Source of the DNA: Arsukibacterium sp. UBA3155
Lineage (GTDB): Bacteria > Pseudomonadota > Gammaproteobacteria > Enterobacterales > Alteromonadaceae
Assembly (NCBI GenBank): GCA_002364615.1
Contig: DEYP01000025.1
Coordinates: forward strand, 124,001-188,000
DNA length: 64,000 bases
Direction of reading: 5' to 3'
Shown here: in pieces, positions 11,762 to 17,670 of the stretch
Numbering within the stretch: the first letter of the stretch is position 1
Layout: each line of letters starts with the position of its first letter
Made by a program: the position numbers and the translations under genes
The notes under the pieces: generated by a model
Seen by the model: only the letters and a program-made list of their open reading frames with translations
The model's database searches: none
What the model was told of the DNA's origin: nothing

Positions 11762-12037
11762 ATGAACGAGCAAAATTGTCTGCAGAAAATTCGCAATCTT
11801 GGTGTCCGGTTACAGGAACTGGAATTGGTGCAAGTAGCACCGGGCAAGTCTTATACTGCTACGGCGCTGAACTTTTTGTTTGCCGACCATGGTGCAACGC
11901 GCCCTGCCGGGATACCACTGGACCATACGTTGCGTGCCTTAGGAGAGATTATCGTCGCCAACAGAAAAGTGCATTTCAGCCGGCTTGACCCCGATAGCAT
12001 TGTTGATTTTTTCTGCCGTTTTTACCGGGTTCATTGA
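11762..12037 (+). CDS. Hypothetical 91-residue protein
   Basis: A short frame starting with ATG seven bases after a GGGGG run that could serve as a ribosome site. The predicted product is mostly soluble, with no signal peptide, membrane helix or recognised motif. It lies divergent from the Lon-like protease and just upstream of the proposed hvf promoter, so its own transcript probably ends in or reads through that promoter. I do not recognise a family. The reading frame is not interrupted and a start site is present, but the evidence that it is a real gene is moderate only. Confidence 0.45.
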   Translation: MNEQNCLQKIRNLGVRLQELELVQVAPGKSYTATALNFLFADHGATRPAGIPLDHTLRALGEIIVANRKVHFSRLDPDSIVDFFCRFYRVH

Positions 12038-12051
12038 AATAAGCAAATTTT

Positions 12052-12084
12052 TGAAATACCTTTGCTGGTGGCCGGGTCTTATAA
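12052..12084 (+). promoter_or_regulatory. Predicted ECF-sigma promoter of the hvfABC operon
   Basis: TGAAATACC at 12052-12060 and GTCTTATAA at 12076-12084. The first bases of the two elements are 24 apart. The same pair with the same spacing occurs upstream of the DoxX/sigma operon at 14258-14290. A GTC-containing -10 with a GAA-containing -35 is typical of ECF sigma factors. hvfA starts 30 bases after this site. A second TGAAATA lies 17 bases further upstream (12035). Confidence 0.65.
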
Positions 12085-12114
12085 CTGACTCTGACAACCA
12101 AAAGGTAAAATCTG

Positions 12115-12531
12115 ATGAAATCACTAAATAAAACCCAACTTTCTTTTGCGCTTGGCGCCATGGCTTTAGGTTCTGTTGCCGCCGGTGCGGCGCATGCCGA
12201 CACCAACCCTTTTGCAGCTGCTGAACTTAGCATGGCGTATCAGCTTGCCGCTACCGAGGGTAAATGTGGCGAAGGCAAATGTGGCGCCGATAAAGCCAAA
12301 GACAAAGCTAAAGATAAAGCTGCAGAAAAAAGCCAGGAAATGAAATGTGGTGAAGGCAAATGTGGTGCTGATAAAGCTAAAGCAAAAGCAAAAGCCGAAG
12401 ATAAAGCCAAAGAAATGAAGTGCGGCGAAGGCAAGTGTGGCGCCGATAAAGCCAAAGCAAAAGCCGAAGATAAAGCGGCAGAAAAAAGTAAAGAAATGAA
12501 GTGTGGCGAAGGCAAATGCGGTGCGGCGTAA
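12115..12531 (+). CDS. hvfA: HvfA-type RiPP metallophore precursor, KCGEGKCG repeats
   Basis: A 138-residue precursor with a Sec signal peptide (about 1-28, cleavage after AHA) and then a low-complexity core. Eight Cys (51, 56, 78, 83, 103, 108, 130, 135) sit in four pairs five residues apart. Three pairs are MKCGEGKCG and the first is TEGKCGEGKCG, giving five EGKCG motifs. The pairs are separated by Lys/Ala/Glu/Asp-rich spacers and recur every 25-27 residues. In described hvf and bufferin systems such Cys motifs are modified by an MNIO enzyme with a DUF2063 partner to give copper-binding peptides. Here the modifying genes follow directly. The assignment is strong; the exact modification and metal are inferred. 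Confidence 0.88.
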   Translation: MKSLNKTQLSFALGAMALGSVAAGAAHADTNPFAAAELSMAYQLAATEGKCGEGKCGADKAKDKAKDKAAEKSQEMKCGEGKCGADKAKAKAKAEDKAKEMKCGEGKCGADKAKAKAEDKAAEKSKEMKCGEGKCGAA

Positions 12532-12534
12532 GCG

Positions 12535-13419
12535 GTGAATGTTAAAGCCTCATTAACCGGAGCAGGCCTTGGCCTGCGCCGGGAAATGCTCAGTGAAGTG
12601 CTGGCGACCACCCGCCCGGTAGCGGATTTTTTTGAAGTCGCCCCGGAAAACTGGTTGCCTTACGGTGGTAAACTGGCCAGTCAGTTTAAAGCGCTGACCG
12701 AGCGTCATGCCTTTGCCTGCCATGGCTTATCTTTGTCAATTGGCAGTCCCGACCCACTCGATATTAATTTTATTAAACAGTTAAAGGTGTTTTTTCGGGA
12801 ACACAATATCAAGCTGTACAGCGAACACTTAAGTTATTGTTCTGCTAAAGGGCATTTATACGACTTAATGCCTATTCCCTTTACCGAAGAAGCCGCCCGT
12901 TATGTCGCCGCCCGGATACGCACGGTACAGGATATTCTGGAACAACCCCTGATTCTGGAAAATGTGTCTTATTATGCTGCGCCTGGCCAGCAGATAAGCG
13001 AGCTGGACTTTATTGGTGAAGTACTCGAACAAGCCAATTGCCAACTACTACTTGATGTTAATAATATTTATGTTAACTCGGTAAATCATGGCTATGACGC
13101 CGCTGCGTTTCTGCGGGCGTTACCCTCTGAGCGCGTGGCCTACTATCACGTAGCCGGTCATTATCAGGAAGCACCGGATTTACTGGTCGATACTCATGGT
13201 GCCGATATTCCGGATCCGGTTTGGCAGTTACTGCAACAGGCGTACCTGCAGCACGGCGTAAAACCCACCTTATATGAGCGCGATTTTAATATTCCGGCGC
13301 TTAGCAGCTTGCAGCACGAACTGGATACGATCAGAGTGATGCAACAACAGGCACTTAACGCCAGCAGCCAAAAAACCGGTTCGCAAAAACATAGTTCGCC
13401 AAAGACTGCCGTATTATGA
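12535..13419 (+). CDS. hvfB: MNIO (DUF692) multinuclear iron oxidase that modifies HvfA
   Basis: A 294-residue TIM-barrel enzyme of the MNIO family. The iron ligands and family blocks are visible: FFEVAPENW, HGLSLSIGS, LYSEHLSY, ENVSYY, LDVNNIYVNS, YYHVAGH, DTHGADI and YERDFNIP. These enzymes use two or three iron ions and oxygen to rearrange Cys or Asn side chains in peptides. Translation begins at GTG 12535, only three bases after the hvfA stop, so it is coupled to the precursor. The C-terminus adds a short Ser/Lys-rich tail of about 20 residues. It overlaps the next gene by four bases (ATGA). Confidence 0.92.
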   Translation: MNVKASLTGAGLGLRREMLSEVLATTRPVADFFEVAPENWLPYGGKLASQFKALTERHAFACHGLSLSIGSPDPLDINFIKQLKVFFREHNIKLYSEHLSYCSAKGHLYDLMPIPFTEEAARYVAARIRTVQDILEQPLILENVSYYAAPGQQISELDFIGEVLEQANCQLLLDVNNIYVNSVNHGYDAAAFLRALPSERVAYYHVAGHYQEAPDLLVDTHGADIPDPVWQLLQQAYLQHGVKPTLYERDFNIPALSSLQHELDTIRVMQQQALNASSQKTGSQKHSSPKTAVL

Positions 13420-14219
13420 GTTCTCACCCCATTAATTCTGACAGCAACACGACCAGCGATAACGACTTTAAACAGCTGCAACTGCAGTTCGCGGCTTATA
13501 TTCGTGATCCTGGCAACTGCCCGCCGCCGCAAGGGCTCGAAGCGCGTCGGTTAAAGGTATACCGAGACCTGTTTTTTAATAATGTTAAAGGCTTTCTCGA
13601 CACGGCGTTTCCGGTGTTAAAAACCCTGTACAGCGACAGCGCCTGGACGGCACTGGCCCAGCAATTTTTTAGTAAGTATGCCTGCCACAGCCCTTACTTT
13701 TTGCATATTGCCGAGCAATTTGTGGCATTTTTGCAAGACTACCCGCCGACAGAGACGGATCCGGCTTTTTTAGCGGAGTTGGCGCATTACGAATGGGCGG
13801 AGCTGTATATCGCTACCCAGGTGCTAAGCCAGCCCCAGCCTTTACTTGAGTCCGGGCAATTAACTGGCACACAGCTCGAAAGTACCCGGTTGCAGCTGTC
13901 TGAGCTGGCCATGCTCTGCGCTTACCAGTGGCCAGTGCAGCAAATATGCACCGATTTTCAACCTGCTGAACCGGGGCAGCCCGTTTTTTTCTTGCTGTAT
14001 CGCAACACAGAGCATGAAGTTAAATTTGTGCAGCTTAACCAGGCCACCTTATTATTGCTAAATCATTTAGCAGAGCAGCCCGGTCTGACATTTCCCGCAT
14101 TAATACATACCATCAGCGCGCAATTACCCGGCTTATCTGAGCAGCAATTACAACAGGGCGCCCTGCCCTTGTTGCAGGATTTAGCCCAAAAAGGCGCGAT
14201 TCACGGTTATCAAGGTTAA
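13416..14219 (+). CDS. hvfC: DUF2063 partner protein of the MNIO enzyme (HvfC)
   Basis: 267 residues. The N-terminal DUF2063 domain (about 20-115) shows the typical RRLKVYRDLFFNNVKGFLDTAFPVL block, and a helical and beta C-terminal region follows. In related systems this protein delivers the precursor peptide to the MNIO enzyme and is needed for modification. The ATG overlaps the hvfB stop (ATGA). The first 20 residues are rich in Ser, Asn and Asp and are probably disordered. It is the last gene of the hvfABC transcription unit; an A/T-rich hairpin follows the stop. Confidence 0.9.
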   Translation: MSSHPINSDSNTTSDNDFKQLQLQFAAYIRDPGNCPPPQGLEARRLKVYRDLFFNNVKGFLDTAFPVLKTLYSDSAWTALAQQFFSKYACHSPYFLHIAEQFVAFLQDYPPTETDPAFLAELAHYEWAELYIATQVLSQPQPLLESGQLTGTQLESTRLQLSELAMLCAYQWPVQQICTDFQPAEPGQPVFFLLYRNTEHEVKFVQLNQATLLLLNHLAEQPGLTFPALIHTISAQLPGLSEQQLQQGALPLLQDLAQKGAIHGYQG

Positions 14220-14239
14220 GCTTTTTTCAATAAAAAAGC
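14220..14239 (+). other. A/T-rich hairpin after hvfC, possible weak terminator
   Basis: GCTTTTTT, four-base loop CAAT, then AAAAAAGC. The stem is perfect but weak, and no T-run follows on the plus strand, so termination is uncertain. It lies between hvfC and the second ECF-type promoter. Confidence 0.35.
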
Positions 14240-14257
14240 GGGTCGACAACAAAACAG

Positions 14258-14290
14258 TGAAATAACACTACGTCAGCCACGGTCTTGTTA
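14258..14290 (+). promoter_or_regulatory. Predicted ECF-sigma promoter of the DoxX-sigma-antisigma operon
   Basis: TGAAATAAC at 14258-14266 and GTCTTGTTA at 14282-14290. The spacing is identical to the hvfA promoter (first bases 24 apart) and the two match in 8 of 9 and 7 of 9 positions. It lies 39 bases before the DoxX start. This implies that the sigma factor encoded downstream activates its own operon. Confidence 0.65.
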
Positions 14291-14329
14291 TGCATGGTGA
14301 TTCTAGCAACAAATTAACAGGCAAGGTTT

Positions 14330-14968
14330 ATGTTAAAGCGACTCTATTCTTATTATCAACGAACGGTCAGCCGTCTGGCGCAGGTCAGTGGCCTGGCGCC
14401 CTTGCTATTGCGGCTTATACTGGCACCAGTGCTTATTCAGGCCGGCTGGAATAAATTTAGTCATTTTGACAATACCGTCGCCTGGTTTGGTAACAGTGAC
14501 TGGGGCTTAGGTTTGCCGCTGCCAGCACTGTTAGCCGGCCTGGCAATTGCCGCTGAGTTAATCGGCGGAGCCTTGTTACTAATGGGGTTACTGACCCGGC
14601 TGGTGGCAATACCTTTATTAATAACCATGCTAATCGCTATTTTTGCGGTGCATCTGCCCTACGGCTGGCCTGCCATAGCAGATAGCAGCAGCTGGCTGGC
14701 CGATGGCACGATTTTACTGAACGAGCGGGTAATGGACAGCAGCGAAAAAATTGAAGCCGCCCGCAGTCTGTTGCAACAACACGGTAATTACGACTGGCTC
14801 ACCTCAAGCGGCAAACTGGTGATCCTGAACAATGGCATTGAATTTGCGGCCATGTATTTAGCCATGTTGCTAAGCCTGCTGTTTAGTGGCGGCGGGCGTT
14901 ATGTCAGCGTTGATTACTGGCTTCATCGCTACTGTCAGCCGCTTTACTCTGGCGTTGCCAGGCACTAA
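14330..14968 (+). CDS. DoxX-family membrane protein of the hvf cluster
   Basis: 212 residues with four predicted membrane helices (about 22-40, 60-85, 88-105, 168-190) and the DoxX signature APVLIQAGWNKFSHF. The soluble insert at about 112-165 is longer than in minimal DoxX proteins. DoxX proteins are frequent partners of MNIO/DUF2063 gene sets, where they may support redox chemistry or membrane transport of the modified peptide; the exact role is unproven. It is the first gene of the second transcription unit, 51 bases before the sigma factor gene. Confidence 0.88.
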   Translation: MLKRLYSYYQRTVSRLAQVSGLAPLLLRLILAPVLIQAGWNKFSHFDNTVAWFGNSDWGLGLPLPALLAGLAIAAELIGGALLLMGLLTRLVAIPLLITMLIAIFAVHLPYGWPAIADSSSWLADGTILLNERVMDSSEKIEAARSLLQQHGNYDWLTSSGKLVILNNGIEFAAMYLAMLLSLLFSGGGRYVSVDYWLHRYCQPLYSGVARH

Positions 14969-15019
14969 TGCGGCCAGCCACCTTAATTACCTTAAATGAT
15001 TGCTTTACAGGTTCAGCTT

Positions 15020-15622
15020 ATGTCCATTACGCTTACGGCCCATGCAACCAAGCAAAAGTCCCGATTAATGTCGACATCACGAAAGACACTGCTCACTTTG
15101 CCGGTCTCTTTATTTAAGCGCAAAGCACAAAGCAACAGCCAGCGCTATGAGCAGTTGGTAAGGCTGTATCATGCGGATTTATACCGGTACGCTTTTTGGT
15201 TATGCCGCGACCAGCATATTGCCGAAGACATTGTGCAGGATACGTTTTTACGGGCCTGGAAAGCGCTGGATTCGTTACTGGACGACAACGCGGCGAAAAG
15301 CTGGCTTATTACTATTCTGCGCCGGGAAAACGCGCGGCGGTTTGAGCGAAAACAGCTGGATTACAGTGATGTTGAGCAAGAGAATCTAACCGATGATATT
15401 AACCCGGCATTAGAGCAGCAATATGATAATGCCGTGCTGCAACAACAGTTACTGCTGTTACCACCTGAATATGGCGAGCCCTTGCTATTGCAGGCCTTAG
15501 CAGGTTTTAGCAGCGACGAAATTGGCCAACTACTAGGTTTAAACGTAAATACCGTGAACACCCGCTTATTCCGGGCCCGGCACTTACTGAAGCAGCGCCT
15601 GACCGCGCAAGAAAAGGGGTAA
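15020..15622 (+). CDS. ECF sigma-70 factor linked to the hvf cluster
   Basis: About 200 residues. Region 2 covers YEQLVRLYHADLYRYAFWL and AEDIVQDTFLRAWKAL. Region 4 covers LPPEYGEPLLLQALAGFSSDEI and a helix-turn-helix with NTVNTRLFRARHLL. The ATG at 15020 has AGG eight bases upstream; the ATG at 14996 has none. A small gap (four bases) separates it from the anti-sigma gene. Because the two local transcription units share an ECF-type promoter, this protein is the likely activator of both. The inducing signal is probably a metal such as copper, inferred from the HvfA product. Confidence 0.92.
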   Translation: MSITLTAHATKQKSRLMSTSRKTLLTLPVSLFKRKAQSNSQRYEQLVRLYHADLYRYAFWLCRDQHIAEDIVQDTFLRAWKALDSLLDDNAAKSWLITILRRENARRFERKQLDYSDVEQENLTDDINPALEQQYDNAVLQQQLLLLPPEYGEPLLLQALAGFSSDEIGQLLGLNVNTVNTRLFRARHLLKQRLTAQEKG

Positions 15623-15626
15623 AGCG

Positions 15627-16334
15627 ATGGTTGATTTATCATTAAGACAGGCTCTGATTGCCGATCCACAGGCCCGCTCTGCCAAGCTCGCACAGGCCGT
15701 TGCCGCCGATCCTCAGTTACAACAACTGCAACGCCAGTTACTGCTGGACCAGGTGCGCATTATGCAAGCACTTACCCTGGATGTGCCCGATACCTTAGCG
15801 GTAAAACTGCTACGCCAGCAAATGCAGCTAACTCAGAAAACGCAAACTAGGCGTTTTACCGGCGCTATTGCCTTAGCCGCATCTATCGCCTTTGTTGCCG
15901 GCCTGACCCTGAACTGGTTTAACTATGGCTTTCCTGACATGACCTTAGGCCAGCATGCGTTGGCGCATGTGTATCATGAAGCACCCTATATGGACCAGAT
16001 GCTGGCGCCGCAACCGCTGATTCAGGTTAACGCTAAGCTGGCAAGCTTTGGCGCTGAACTGACAGACTGGTCGCAATCTATTGTTTATTCAAATTTTTGT
16101 GATTTTCGCGGCACCCGTTCGTTACATTTAGTGATGCAAACCGAACAAGGGTTGGCAACAGTGTTTGTGGTACCAGCGGATAATCAGCTGAAATTTGAGC
16201 ATAATTTCTCTGATGGCACCTATCGCGGTCGCAGTGTAGCGCTAAAAAACGCTGATTTAGTGGTAGTCAGTGAAAATGAGCAGGATTTACAGCAATTACC
16301 CGCTAAACTTCAGCAACAGCTTAAATTTATTTAA
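15627..16334 (+). CDS. DUF3379 membrane protein, probable anti-sigma factor
   Basis: 235 residues. A cytoplasmic N-terminal part (about 1-75) with short helices comes before one membrane helix (about 79-98, AIALAASIAFVAGLTL) and a periplasmic domain of about 135 residues. The start of the periplasmic part carries HALAHVYHEAPYM, three His within eight residues, plus Glu and Met, which could bind metal. DUF3379 proteins are typically encoded right after ECF sigma factors in this group of bacteria. The single-helix topology and operon position fit an anti-sigma factor that senses the envelope. Direct sigma binding is inferred. Confidence 0.85.
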   Translation: MVDLSLRQALIADPQARSAKLAQAVAADPQLQQLQRQLLLDQVRIMQALTLDVPDTLAVKLLRQQMQLTQKTQTRRFTGAIALAASIAFVAGLTLNWFNYGFPDMTLGQHALAHVYHEAPYMDQMLAPQPLIQVNAKLASFGAELTDWSQSIVYSNFCDFRGTRSLHLVMQTEQGLATVFVVPADNQLKFEHNFSDGTYRGRSVALKNADLVVVSENEQDLQQLPAKLQQQLKFI

Positions 16335-16363
16335 CGCAGTATGGTATGGCGCAGGGAAGCAGA

Positions 16364-16765
16364 ATGACCGACAAAAATCAGGCAGAATGGCTGTTAATTC
16401 AGCAAAGTTATGACAAGCAAGAGCAGCAGGCATTATGGCTAAAAGTTGTCACCATTCTGGTATGGCTGTGGTTGCTGAAAAACGCCGCAGCCATTGAGCT
16501 GCAACTCGGTGTTGTTGGCTTATTCTGGCTGCATGAAGCCATCCTTAAAACCTTTCAGCTACGCGCCGCCAACCGTTTACTGCAACTGGAGCAGGCCATA
16601 CTGCAGGCTCAGGATATTGGTTGTCAGTGGCACAGCCAGTGGCAATATCAGCGGCAAAACCCGTTACAGCTAATACAGGGCTATGCCAAACAGGCCGTCA
16701 AACCCACGGTGGCAGTAACTTACCTGGCGCTCATAGCCGCCAGCCTGCTACGGCTTTGGCTGTAG
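16364..16765 (+). CDS. Small membrane protein of unknown function at the end of the sigma operon
   Basis: 133 residues, starting at the ATG at 16364 after AGGGAAG. Two membrane segments are likely near 30-60 (VTILVWLWLLKNAAA and following) and one at the C-terminus (about 115-132). The middle is a Gln-rich amphipathic helix (LLQLEQAILQAQ). I recognise no family. It starts 29 bases after the anti-sigma stop and is read in the same direction, so it probably belongs to the same transcript and the same response. Confidence 0.8.
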   Translation: MTDKNQAEWLLIQQSYDKQEQQALWLKVVTILVWLWLLKNAAAIELQLGVVGLFWLHEAILKTFQLRAANRLLQLEQAILQAQDIGCQWHSQWQYQRQNPLQLIQGYAKQAVKPTVAVTYLALIAASLLRLWL

Positions 16766-17100: not shown

Positions 17101-17150
17101 TTGTACATGTTAAGGTTTGAGGCTATACTTGTCCTGTGAAACGTACATGT
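17101..17150 (+). promoter_or_regulatory. yefM-yoeB promoter and operator
   Basis: A -35 TTGTAC (17101-17106) and -10 TATACT (17124-17129) are 17 bases apart. Palindromic TGTACATG-type sequences overlap the -35 (17102-17109) and recur before the start codon (GTACATGT 17143-17150); a related GACATGTC lies at about 17087. YefM-type antitoxins bind palindromes with a TGTACA core, so autoregulation by the antitoxin or the complex is expected. Confidence 0.7.
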
Positions 17151-17159
17151 GGAGGTTGT

Positions 17160-17414
17160 ATGAGAATTGTGTCTTTTACTGAAGCAAGAAATAGCCTGAA
17201 AGCGGTTTTAGATTCCGTCGTTAATGACGCAGATACAGCAGTCATTACTCGCCGTGATTCGGAAGATGCTGTTGTTATGTCGCTGGACTACTACAACAGT
17301 CTGATGGAAACGGTTCACTTACTGCGCTCACCTGCCAATGCTGAGCATTTGAATCGCTCAATTGAACAATTCAAAGCAGGTAAGATAACCTGCAGAGACT
17401 TGATTGATGAGTAG
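17160..17414 (+). CDS. yefM: YefM-type antitoxin
   Basis: An 84-residue Phd/YefM-family antitoxin. The N-terminal DNA-binding fold begins MRIVSFTEARNSLKAVLD and continues to VVMSLDYYNSLMET; the C-terminal tail is the flexible toxin-neutralising part. The start is the ATG at 17160, preceded by GGAGG at 17151-17155. A GTG at 17136 would extend the frame but overlaps the operator. It neutralises YoeB and represses the operon. Its stop overlaps the toxin start (ATGAGTAG), giving tight coupling. Confidence 0.95.
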   Translation: MRIVSFTEARNSLKAVLDSVVNDADTAVITRRDSEDAVVMSLDYYNSLMETVHLLRSPANAEHLNRSIEQFKAGKITCRDLIDE

Positions 17415-17670
17415 TCGTTTGCTGTCATGGACTGACGAATCCTGGAGCGATTACCTTTATTGGCAAACCCAGGACAAAAAAAAGCTCAAACGAATAAACA
17501 AGCTTATAAACGACGTTAGACGCTCACCGTTTGAAGGTATTGGTAAGCCTGAGCCGTTAAAGGAAAACCTAGCTGGTTTTTGGTCCCGACGTATAGATGA
17601 TACGAACAGGTTGGTGTACGCAGTTGATGATAATACGATTACGATAATCTCGTGCCGTTATCACTATTAG
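17407..17670 (+). CDS. yoeB: YoeB-type mRNA interferase toxin
   Basis: An 87-residue RelE-superfamily toxin that cleaves mRNA at the ribosomal A site. Very close to the family pattern: WSDYLYWQTQDKKKLKRIN, SPFEGIGKPEPLKENLAGFWSRRID and a C-terminal SCRYHY. The catalytic Glu in the PLKENL region, the Arg in WSRRI and the penultimate His are present, so it is probably active. The ATG at 17407 is preferred over the TTG at 17404. Confidence 0.96.
   Translation: MSSRLLSWTDESWSDYLYWQTQDKKKLKRINKLINDVRRSPFEGIGKPEPLKENLAGFWSRRIDDTNRLVYAVDDNTITIISCRYHY

Follow-up and report, generated by a model that had tools for sequence, protein, structure and literature searches.

A predicted ECF-type promoter shared by the hvf copper-peptide genes and a sigma factor/DUF3379 pair in Arsukibacterium and its relatives

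The window analysed here, a stretch of 64,000 nucleotides from Arsukibacterium sp. UBA3155 (Alteromonadaceae; contig DEYP01000025.1), carries two head-to-tail gene units, hvfA-hvfB-hvfC followed by hvfX (DoxX)-sigma-DUF3379-small membrane protein, and raises the question of whether both units are read from one kind of promoter, and by which extracytoplasmic function (ECF) sigma factor. The nearest named relatives of the source genome (3.9 Mb) are Arsukibacterium species, with 77-89% identity over the DUF3379 protein. From the comparison of sequences we consider it very probable that a single ECF sigma factor, the PRK12517-type sigma encoded in the second unit, uses the sites preceding the two units as promoters, because the same -35 and -10 elements recur throughout the family, both ahead of hvfA and on the sigma gene, and because the motif is missing before hvfA in seven of the eight genomes without DUF3379.

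Predicted promoters before hvfA and hvfX

The first-pass annotation had described two sites with the same element order and the same start-to-start spacing, and the positions bear this out: TGAAATACC begins at 12052 and GTCTTATAA at 12076, whereas the elements of the other site, TGAAATAAC and GTCTTGTTA, begin at 14258 and 14282, the distance being 24 bases in both. The predicted ECF-type promoter of hvfABC (12052..12084, forward strand) consists of a -35 element TGAAAT (12052-12057), a 17-base spacer and a -10 element GGTCT (12075-12079), with a predicted transcript start near A12088, and that of hvfX-sigma-DUF3379 (14258..14290, forward strand) consists of TGAAAT (14258-14263), 17 bases and GGTCT (14281-14285), with a start near A14294. 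The core TGAAAT-N17-GGTCT has exactly two exact matches on both strands of the window, compared with a mean of 0.01 over 100 dinucleotide shuffles, none of which held two. A longer form, TGAAATANC-N15-GTCTTRTWA, is matched exactly at these two places alone across all 30 contigs (3.9 Mb) of the genome. With the pattern NGAAAK-N17-GGTCT the window has three exact matches (0.14 expected), the third of which, at 15080-15107, had been overlooked in the annotation.

Both sites recur in all five Arsukibacterium loci, with differing spacer sequences. The second one precedes hvfX in four of the five, as far as these were read, and a thioredoxin gene in locus L036 (Arsukibacterium sp. MJ3), which also has a weaker site ahead of its sigma gene; in L038 the second site reads GGTCC. 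Inspection by eye of L036:5402-6553 found the motif ahead of thioredoxin-like and CcdA-like genes at the place where the other Arsukibacterium loci have hvfX, so that one thiol-redox partner has perhaps been replaced by another.

HvfA repeats were found in 110 of 147 genomes of the family, and DUF3379 scored over its cut-off in 128 of the 147 (143 of 295 genomes in the order); where coordinates were compared, the hvfA and sigma/DUF3379 loci mostly lie on separate contigs or far apart. The region upstream of hvfA was read in all 110 genomes, allowing up to one mismatch and spacers of 16-18 bases. The motif was present in 98 of the 102 genomes with DUF3379, a count that includes G112, G120 and G124, set to present by hand once a wrong or N-broken hvfA start had been resolved (95 of 102 otherwise), and in one of the eight without it (Fisher's test, 8e-8, kinship ignored), with 1.05% expected from shuffles; by genus the figure is 41 of 42. 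The conservation of the motif before MNIO clusters, which the annotation had proposed as a check, is thus far beyond chance. Genome G102, whose DUF3379 match of 31.1 bits falls under the cut-off, was counted among those without the protein. A single DUF3379-less genome of the family has the motif, namely G107, whose completeness is 80% and whose congeners G034 and G076 carry DUF3379; the DUF3379-less genomes that lack the motif span four genera, one of them (G146) the genus of the window. At the predicted transcript start distance a purine is kept in 97% of 87 aligned hvfA promoters. Outside the family, HvfA repeats were present in 13 of 48 genomes examined, and the motif preceded hvfA in six of nine with DUF3379 versus none of four without; the three DUF3379 genomes scored as negative are G220, where the motif has two mismatches, and G201 and G384, whose DUF3379 matches are weaker (122 and 109 bits).

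A probable promoter within the sigma frame

Sigma loci were aligned on a conserved RYEALV segment, giving 129 loci (128 genomes and a second copy in G094), 125 of which were scored; G003, G005, G075 and G087 were left out with their strand not fixed. The last three of these show boxes if G-T-C-C or G-T-C-A endings are allowed, and in G003 no boxes were found even then. GAAAT/GGTCT boxes with up to two mismatches are present in 119 of the 125 loci (67 exact, 36 with one mismatch, 16 with two), with a spacer of 17 bases in all 119. Shuffled sequences yield such sites at rates of 0.08% (exact), 1.1% (up to one mismatch) and 15% (up to two), so the exact and one-mismatch classes, 103 of 125 loci, alone carry weight; here again a search suggested earlier, for the motif at DUF3379-linked sigma genes, came out far above the 1.1% expected. 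Exactly 54 bases upstream of the RYEALV anchor (-54) lie 108 of the sites, 96 of them with at most one mismatch; the other 11 are off the usual place, and some of these (G083, G111, G115) may be chance matches. In two other families of the order, 25 of 26 loci have boxes in the corresponding position if up to two mismatches are allowed. An early view drawn from 30 relatives, that self-control was rare, was dropped because anchoring on RYEALV revealed the motif in nearly all sigma loci; the view was an artefact of start-codon calls, the motif lying on or behind the first start codon.

A start codon stands exactly 8 bases behind GGTCT in 105 of the 119 sites (104 ATG, one GTG), the distance at which hvfA promoters keep their purine, which suggests a leaderless sigma mRNA as the simplest reading. 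Upstream of the motif the frame is often open: 76 of 97 sigma loci whose -35 element does not begin with T have an open in-frame ATG within 45 bases, against two of 97 in each other frame, and the T-first loci have one in two of 11. T, which makes an in-frame stop, is rare as first -35 base, at 11 of 108 sigma sites at -54 versus 90% of 87 hvfA sites (these picked at up to one mismatch). Because T is avoided and the upstream in-frame ATG is open, the site seems to have been maintained both as a promoter and as coding sequence for a longer protein, and the long N-terminus of the sigma factor is likely real in most genomes.

These features would fit an arrangement that we regard as an even call. 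In most relatives, a self-controlled promoter would lie within the first codons of the long sigma frame. Its transcript would begin at the A of an internal ATG, so that a short sigma is translated from a leaderless mRNA, in addition to a longer form expressed from a promoter further upstream; Arsukibacterium, without the internal start, would have its sigma gene read from the promoter copy ahead of hvfX. The long form would have some 15-20 residues more than the short one. In the window, the counterpart of the relatives' leaderless promoter is the third match, CGAAAG-N17-GGTCT inside the sigma frame (15080..15107, forward strand). The predicted internal start is lost in Arsukibacterium, since the codon at its position in the window is AAG instead of ATG and the internal site itself has decayed in L038. 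Only in Arsukibacterium did we see the promoter copied ahead of a DoxX gene that shares its operon with the sigma gene.

Further candidate targets and competing explanations

Exact matches to the motif were also counted genome-wide in 22 genomes, with the reversed pattern as control. Thirty of the 86 matches were taken as loci and 40 regions were retrieved; the coordinates of the remainder identify them as hvfA or sigma sites, apart from two that were read as L190 and L193 and two (G114:547377 and G049:5032719) that were left out. Thiol and redox genes recur among the exact intergenic matches, the recurrent families, taken as leads only, being redoxin-like (G103, G005, G030, G108) and thioredoxin-like proteins (G130, G109, G013), HvfX (G064, G030), MsrP (G024) and a TonB receptor type (G036, G007). 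A protein of about 170 residues without Pfam or NCBIfam match also stands behind an exact motif in L297, L308 and L343 (G058, G117, G141). In L366 (G103) one exact motif precedes rpoH (RpoH equivalog, 410 bits, cut-off 323.1), a single case that is possibly due to chance.

Three candidate targets were followed further. For the periplasmic thioredoxin, 13 loci were scored in genomes outside the discovery list, several of which share genera with the discovery set; 11 carried the motif, or 11 of 12 when strong orthologs alone are counted. Control loci had it in two of 30, and in a second control set 12 of 17 loci had less than 200 bases upstream. Of 18 genomes with DUF3379, 15 had an HvfX match over the cut-off, as against none of 12 without. 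An exact site precedes dsbD in the source genome and in G126 (where DsbD was identified by Pfam), although G126 and L038 are very probably the same genome and hence not independent; with up to one mismatch, a site upstream of cutA-dsbD was present in 11 of 11 DUF3379-positive versus none of five DUF3379-negative genomes. The thioredoxin would thus belong to the regulon, and dsbD perhaps.

Several observations weigh against this regulon or narrow it. In the window, TGAAAT-N17-GGTCT with up to two mismatches is at chance level (13 found, 14.7 expected), so only near-exact matches weigh. Genome-wide, the 86 exact matches barely exceed the 64 of the reversed control; therefore single matches elsewhere mean little, and a regulon list drawn from exact matches alone was rejected. 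The comparison of genomes with and without DUF3379 ignores relatedness, and the seven complete DUF3379-less genomes represent four genera, with four of them in one. Four of the 102 DUF3379 genomes (G035, G038, G050, G137) have no motif near hvfA, G038 having an exact copy 417 bases upstream and G137 an hvfA frame that was not resolved. In the two other families, four of 26 sigma loci have CGC or CGT for CGA, which breaks the -35 element, and there the sigma promoter may be weaker or gone. HvfX loci carry the motif in only seven of 16 cases, three of them overlapping the called start codon (one HvfX locus, L381, was read on the wrong frame). Finally, in at least seven of 11 genomes the cutA-dsbD site overlaps a head-on heat-shock-type promoter (CTTGAAA...CCC) on the other strand, presumably that of groESL, and a purine at +36 is found in only two of the 11; because of these two facts we rate cutA-dsbD merely as a probable member. 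Sites free of the overlap are those of G000, G126, L483 and L484, with L492 and L493 similar by eye. Upstream of cutA-dsbD in L485-L491, the overlap may simply confound the association, or the two stress responses may cross-talk there.

It could be argued that the sigma-gene boxes merely encode an N-terminal Arg-Lys/Asn and Val-Ser, leaving only the hvfA and hvfX sites as promoters. In favor of this, 76 of 97 loci have an ATG upstream of the boxes and a frame that stays open through them, and the Arg codons vary (CGA, CGC, CGT) in the two other families. The codon usage argues otherwise. Valine within GGTCT is encoded by GTC at 117 of 119 sites, although GTC makes up 13.6% of Val codons in the same genes, and the first codon is NGA in 117 of 119 (CGA 70, GGA 23, TGA 14, AGA 10), its residue shifting among Arg and Gly or giving way to a stop while GAAA stays; the 14 loci with an in-frame TGA still keep the motif. 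Because GTC is near-invariant and GAAA is kept while the encoded residue changes or becomes a stop, the conservation of the site reflects a constraint on the DNA; the 119 sites were picked by their match to the motif, but no more than six of the 125 loci lie outside them. We therefore hold a purely coding origin to be improbable.

Another ECF sigma factor, or a shared activator, might instead read the motif, with the DUF3379-linked sigma as just one of its targets. Sequence alone cannot name the sigma that binds, and the DUF3379-linked sigma is the one ECF sigma of these genomes for which the association was computed. This alternative, which we consider unlikely but slightly less so than the coding one, is opposed by the fixed place of the motif on the DUF3379-linked sigma gene in 108 of 125 loci and by its absence before hvfA in all but one of the DUF3379-less genomes; moreover, ECF systems usually carry their own type of promoter on their own sigma gene. 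A chance resemblance between two AT-rich upstream regions has in its favor that two-mismatch matches are as common as expected, but it is refuted by conservation, as the motif is kept in five of five close relatives with diverged spacers and across the family, and by two exact matches where 0.01 were expected; its probability is negligible. Control of both units by the PRK12517-type sigma is thus the reading that we develop below.

Proteins of the window, proposed circuit and known relatives

The gene calls of the first-pass annotation hold against profile models. On the forward strand, hvfA (12115..12531) encodes a precursor of a copper-binding ribosomally synthesized and post-translationally modified peptide (RiPP) with eight [KR]CG repeats (NF050137, 61.1 bits, cut-off 19.5); it passes this repeat-domain model and stays below the narrower HvfA equivalog NF050188 (54 bits versus 95), shows the KCGExKCG repeats of such precursors, and has a signal peptide as judged by eye. 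It is followed by hvfB (12535..13419), the MNIO (DUF692) maturase (NF003818, 431.4 bits, cut-off 360), hvfC (13416..14219), the DUF2063 partner protein (NF050145, 284.1 bits, cut-off 142), and hvfX (14330..14968), of the DoxX family (NF050144, 229.4 bits, cut-off 80). By its proteins the cluster would fit a HvfABCX copper RiPP system of the oxazolin type, with a putative copper-binding thiooxazole product. The ECF sigma factor (14996..15622, with a start that may be further in) passes PRK12517/NF009170 (259.2 bits, cut-off 197) and has regions 2 and 4 only (Sigma70_r2, Sigma70_r4_2).

The DUF3379 gene (15627..16334; PF11859, 204.8 bits, cut-off 33.2) lies directly behind the sigma gene and its product has one membrane segment. 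The His-rich stretch that the annotation had placed near the membrane in the periplasmic part was found as HALAHVYHE, residues 110-118, just behind this segment, and over the 129 aligned loci H114 is conserved in 99%, H117 in 81%, C158 in 100% and H167 in 99%. An AlphaFold model built with six close sequences has four N-terminal helices, a helix at 80-100 and a periplasmic domain, with a mean predicted local distance difference test (pLDDT) score of 69.6 and values below 50 for residues 46-102, which include the membrane helix; a profile search of the PDB gave nothing beyond a weak match (E 0.05) to a chain that looks designed. Its gene order and this model of modest confidence point to a putative membrane anti-sigma factor. 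With a single Cys (C158), the protein lacks the C/H-X23-26-H-X3-C-X2-C motif that defines ZAS proteins in an excerpt of PMC7907618. No paper naming DUF3379 was found in the open-access literature, subscription papers, supplements and ECF classification tables lying outside the search, and the ECF group number of this sigma, or its pairing with DUF3379, may already be in print.

Behind DUF3379, a small membrane protein (16346..16765, forward strand, with a start possibly at an inner ATG) has no Pfam or NCBIfam match, occupies the same place in L034, L036 and L038, and is perhaps part of the regulatory unit. Ahead of hvfA, a frame of 91 residues (11762-12037), likewise without match, is also found at the same place in these three loci. 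Two short genes at 17136-17670 resemble what we take to be a YefM-YoeB toxin-antitoxin pair.

In the proposed circuit, DUF3379 would hold the sigma factor at the membrane, and a periplasmic His/Cys site (H114, H117, C158, H167) would sense copper or thiol oxidation and cause its release. The free sigma would then transcribe its own gene and hvfABC and, less certainly, hvfX, the periplasmic thioredoxin and dsbD, the output being a copper-binding peptide and thiol repair in the envelope. In Arsukibacterium the internal start would have been lost and the sigma read from the promoter copy before hvfX, which would place two units with the same promoter side by side. The self-amplifying regulon foreseen in the annotation stands at the level of sequence, though by a route that the annotation had not described, most relatives carrying the promoter on the sigma's own start codon. 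We only tentatively, at a little short of an even call, take copper or thiol oxidation as the signal, because the targets are a copper-binding peptide and thiol reductases; the wider target set suggests envelope thiol/copper stress rather than metal supply.

Control of hvf operons by ECF sigma factors is already known, and the known systems are compared here as they appear in excerpts of the cited reports. In Haemophilus influenzae, all four genes of the doxX operon (DoxX-like, COG3767, UPF0276, DUF2063), and also msrAB, depend on RpoE2, which is induced by hypochlorous acid (HOCl) (PMC7907618). RpoE2/HrsE thus acts on a homologous hvf operon, as predicted here from sequence; its anti-sigma, however, is a 67-residue cytoplasmic zinc (ZAS) protein of group ECF13, where the present system has DUF3379 in the membrane, and the self-control of RpoE2 is only weak (PMC7907618), whereas a strong motif lies on the sigma gene here. 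In Neisseria meningitidis, sigmaE (with MseR, NMB2140-NMB2145) transcribes its own operon, which includes a DoxX-like gene, together with msrA/msrB (PMC2893595, PMC3240639), so that a self-controlled sigma shares an operon with DoxX, as predicted for the window. Its -10 element CGTCTAA shares GTCT(A) with the motif described here, whereas its -35 element GTAAGGTT, 12-13-base spacer and ZAS protein differ from TGAAAT, 17 bases and DUF3379 (PMC2893595). Bufferin clusters are likewise MNIO copper-peptide clusters with linked sigma and anti-sigma genes, but they carry NrsF and Buf1 precursors, whereas the present system has DUF3379 and a HvfA-type precursor with a usually unlinked sigma (PMC12452194); that MNIO survey reports sigma factors and NrsF alongside bufferins, and DUF3379 is absent from its main text (PMC12452194). 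In Streptomyces, SigR/SigR' is a thiol-stress ECF sigma with long and short forms and two promoters, one of them self-controlled; there the self-controlled promoter lies upstream and yields a long unstable form (PMC4921905), whereas in the present case it is located within the gene and the short form would result, so that the embedded promoter would be a mirror image of that system.

Relative to this known control, the sigma/DUF3379 pair, with its promoter code and embedded promoter, would form a variant that is new. A widespread sigma/DUF3379 pair thereby gains a promoter code, a likely regulon and a role that can be tested, and with the motif at hand further targets can be sought directly and the signal measured. 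If the arrangement proposed for Arsukibacterium is true, it joins sensor, sigma and peptide maturation in one place. DUF3379 would be a further and different putative type of anti-sigma tied to copper-peptide clusters, beside ZAS and NrsF, and the three together suggest that envelope thiol/copper stress is the shared cause behind the production of copper-binding peptides.

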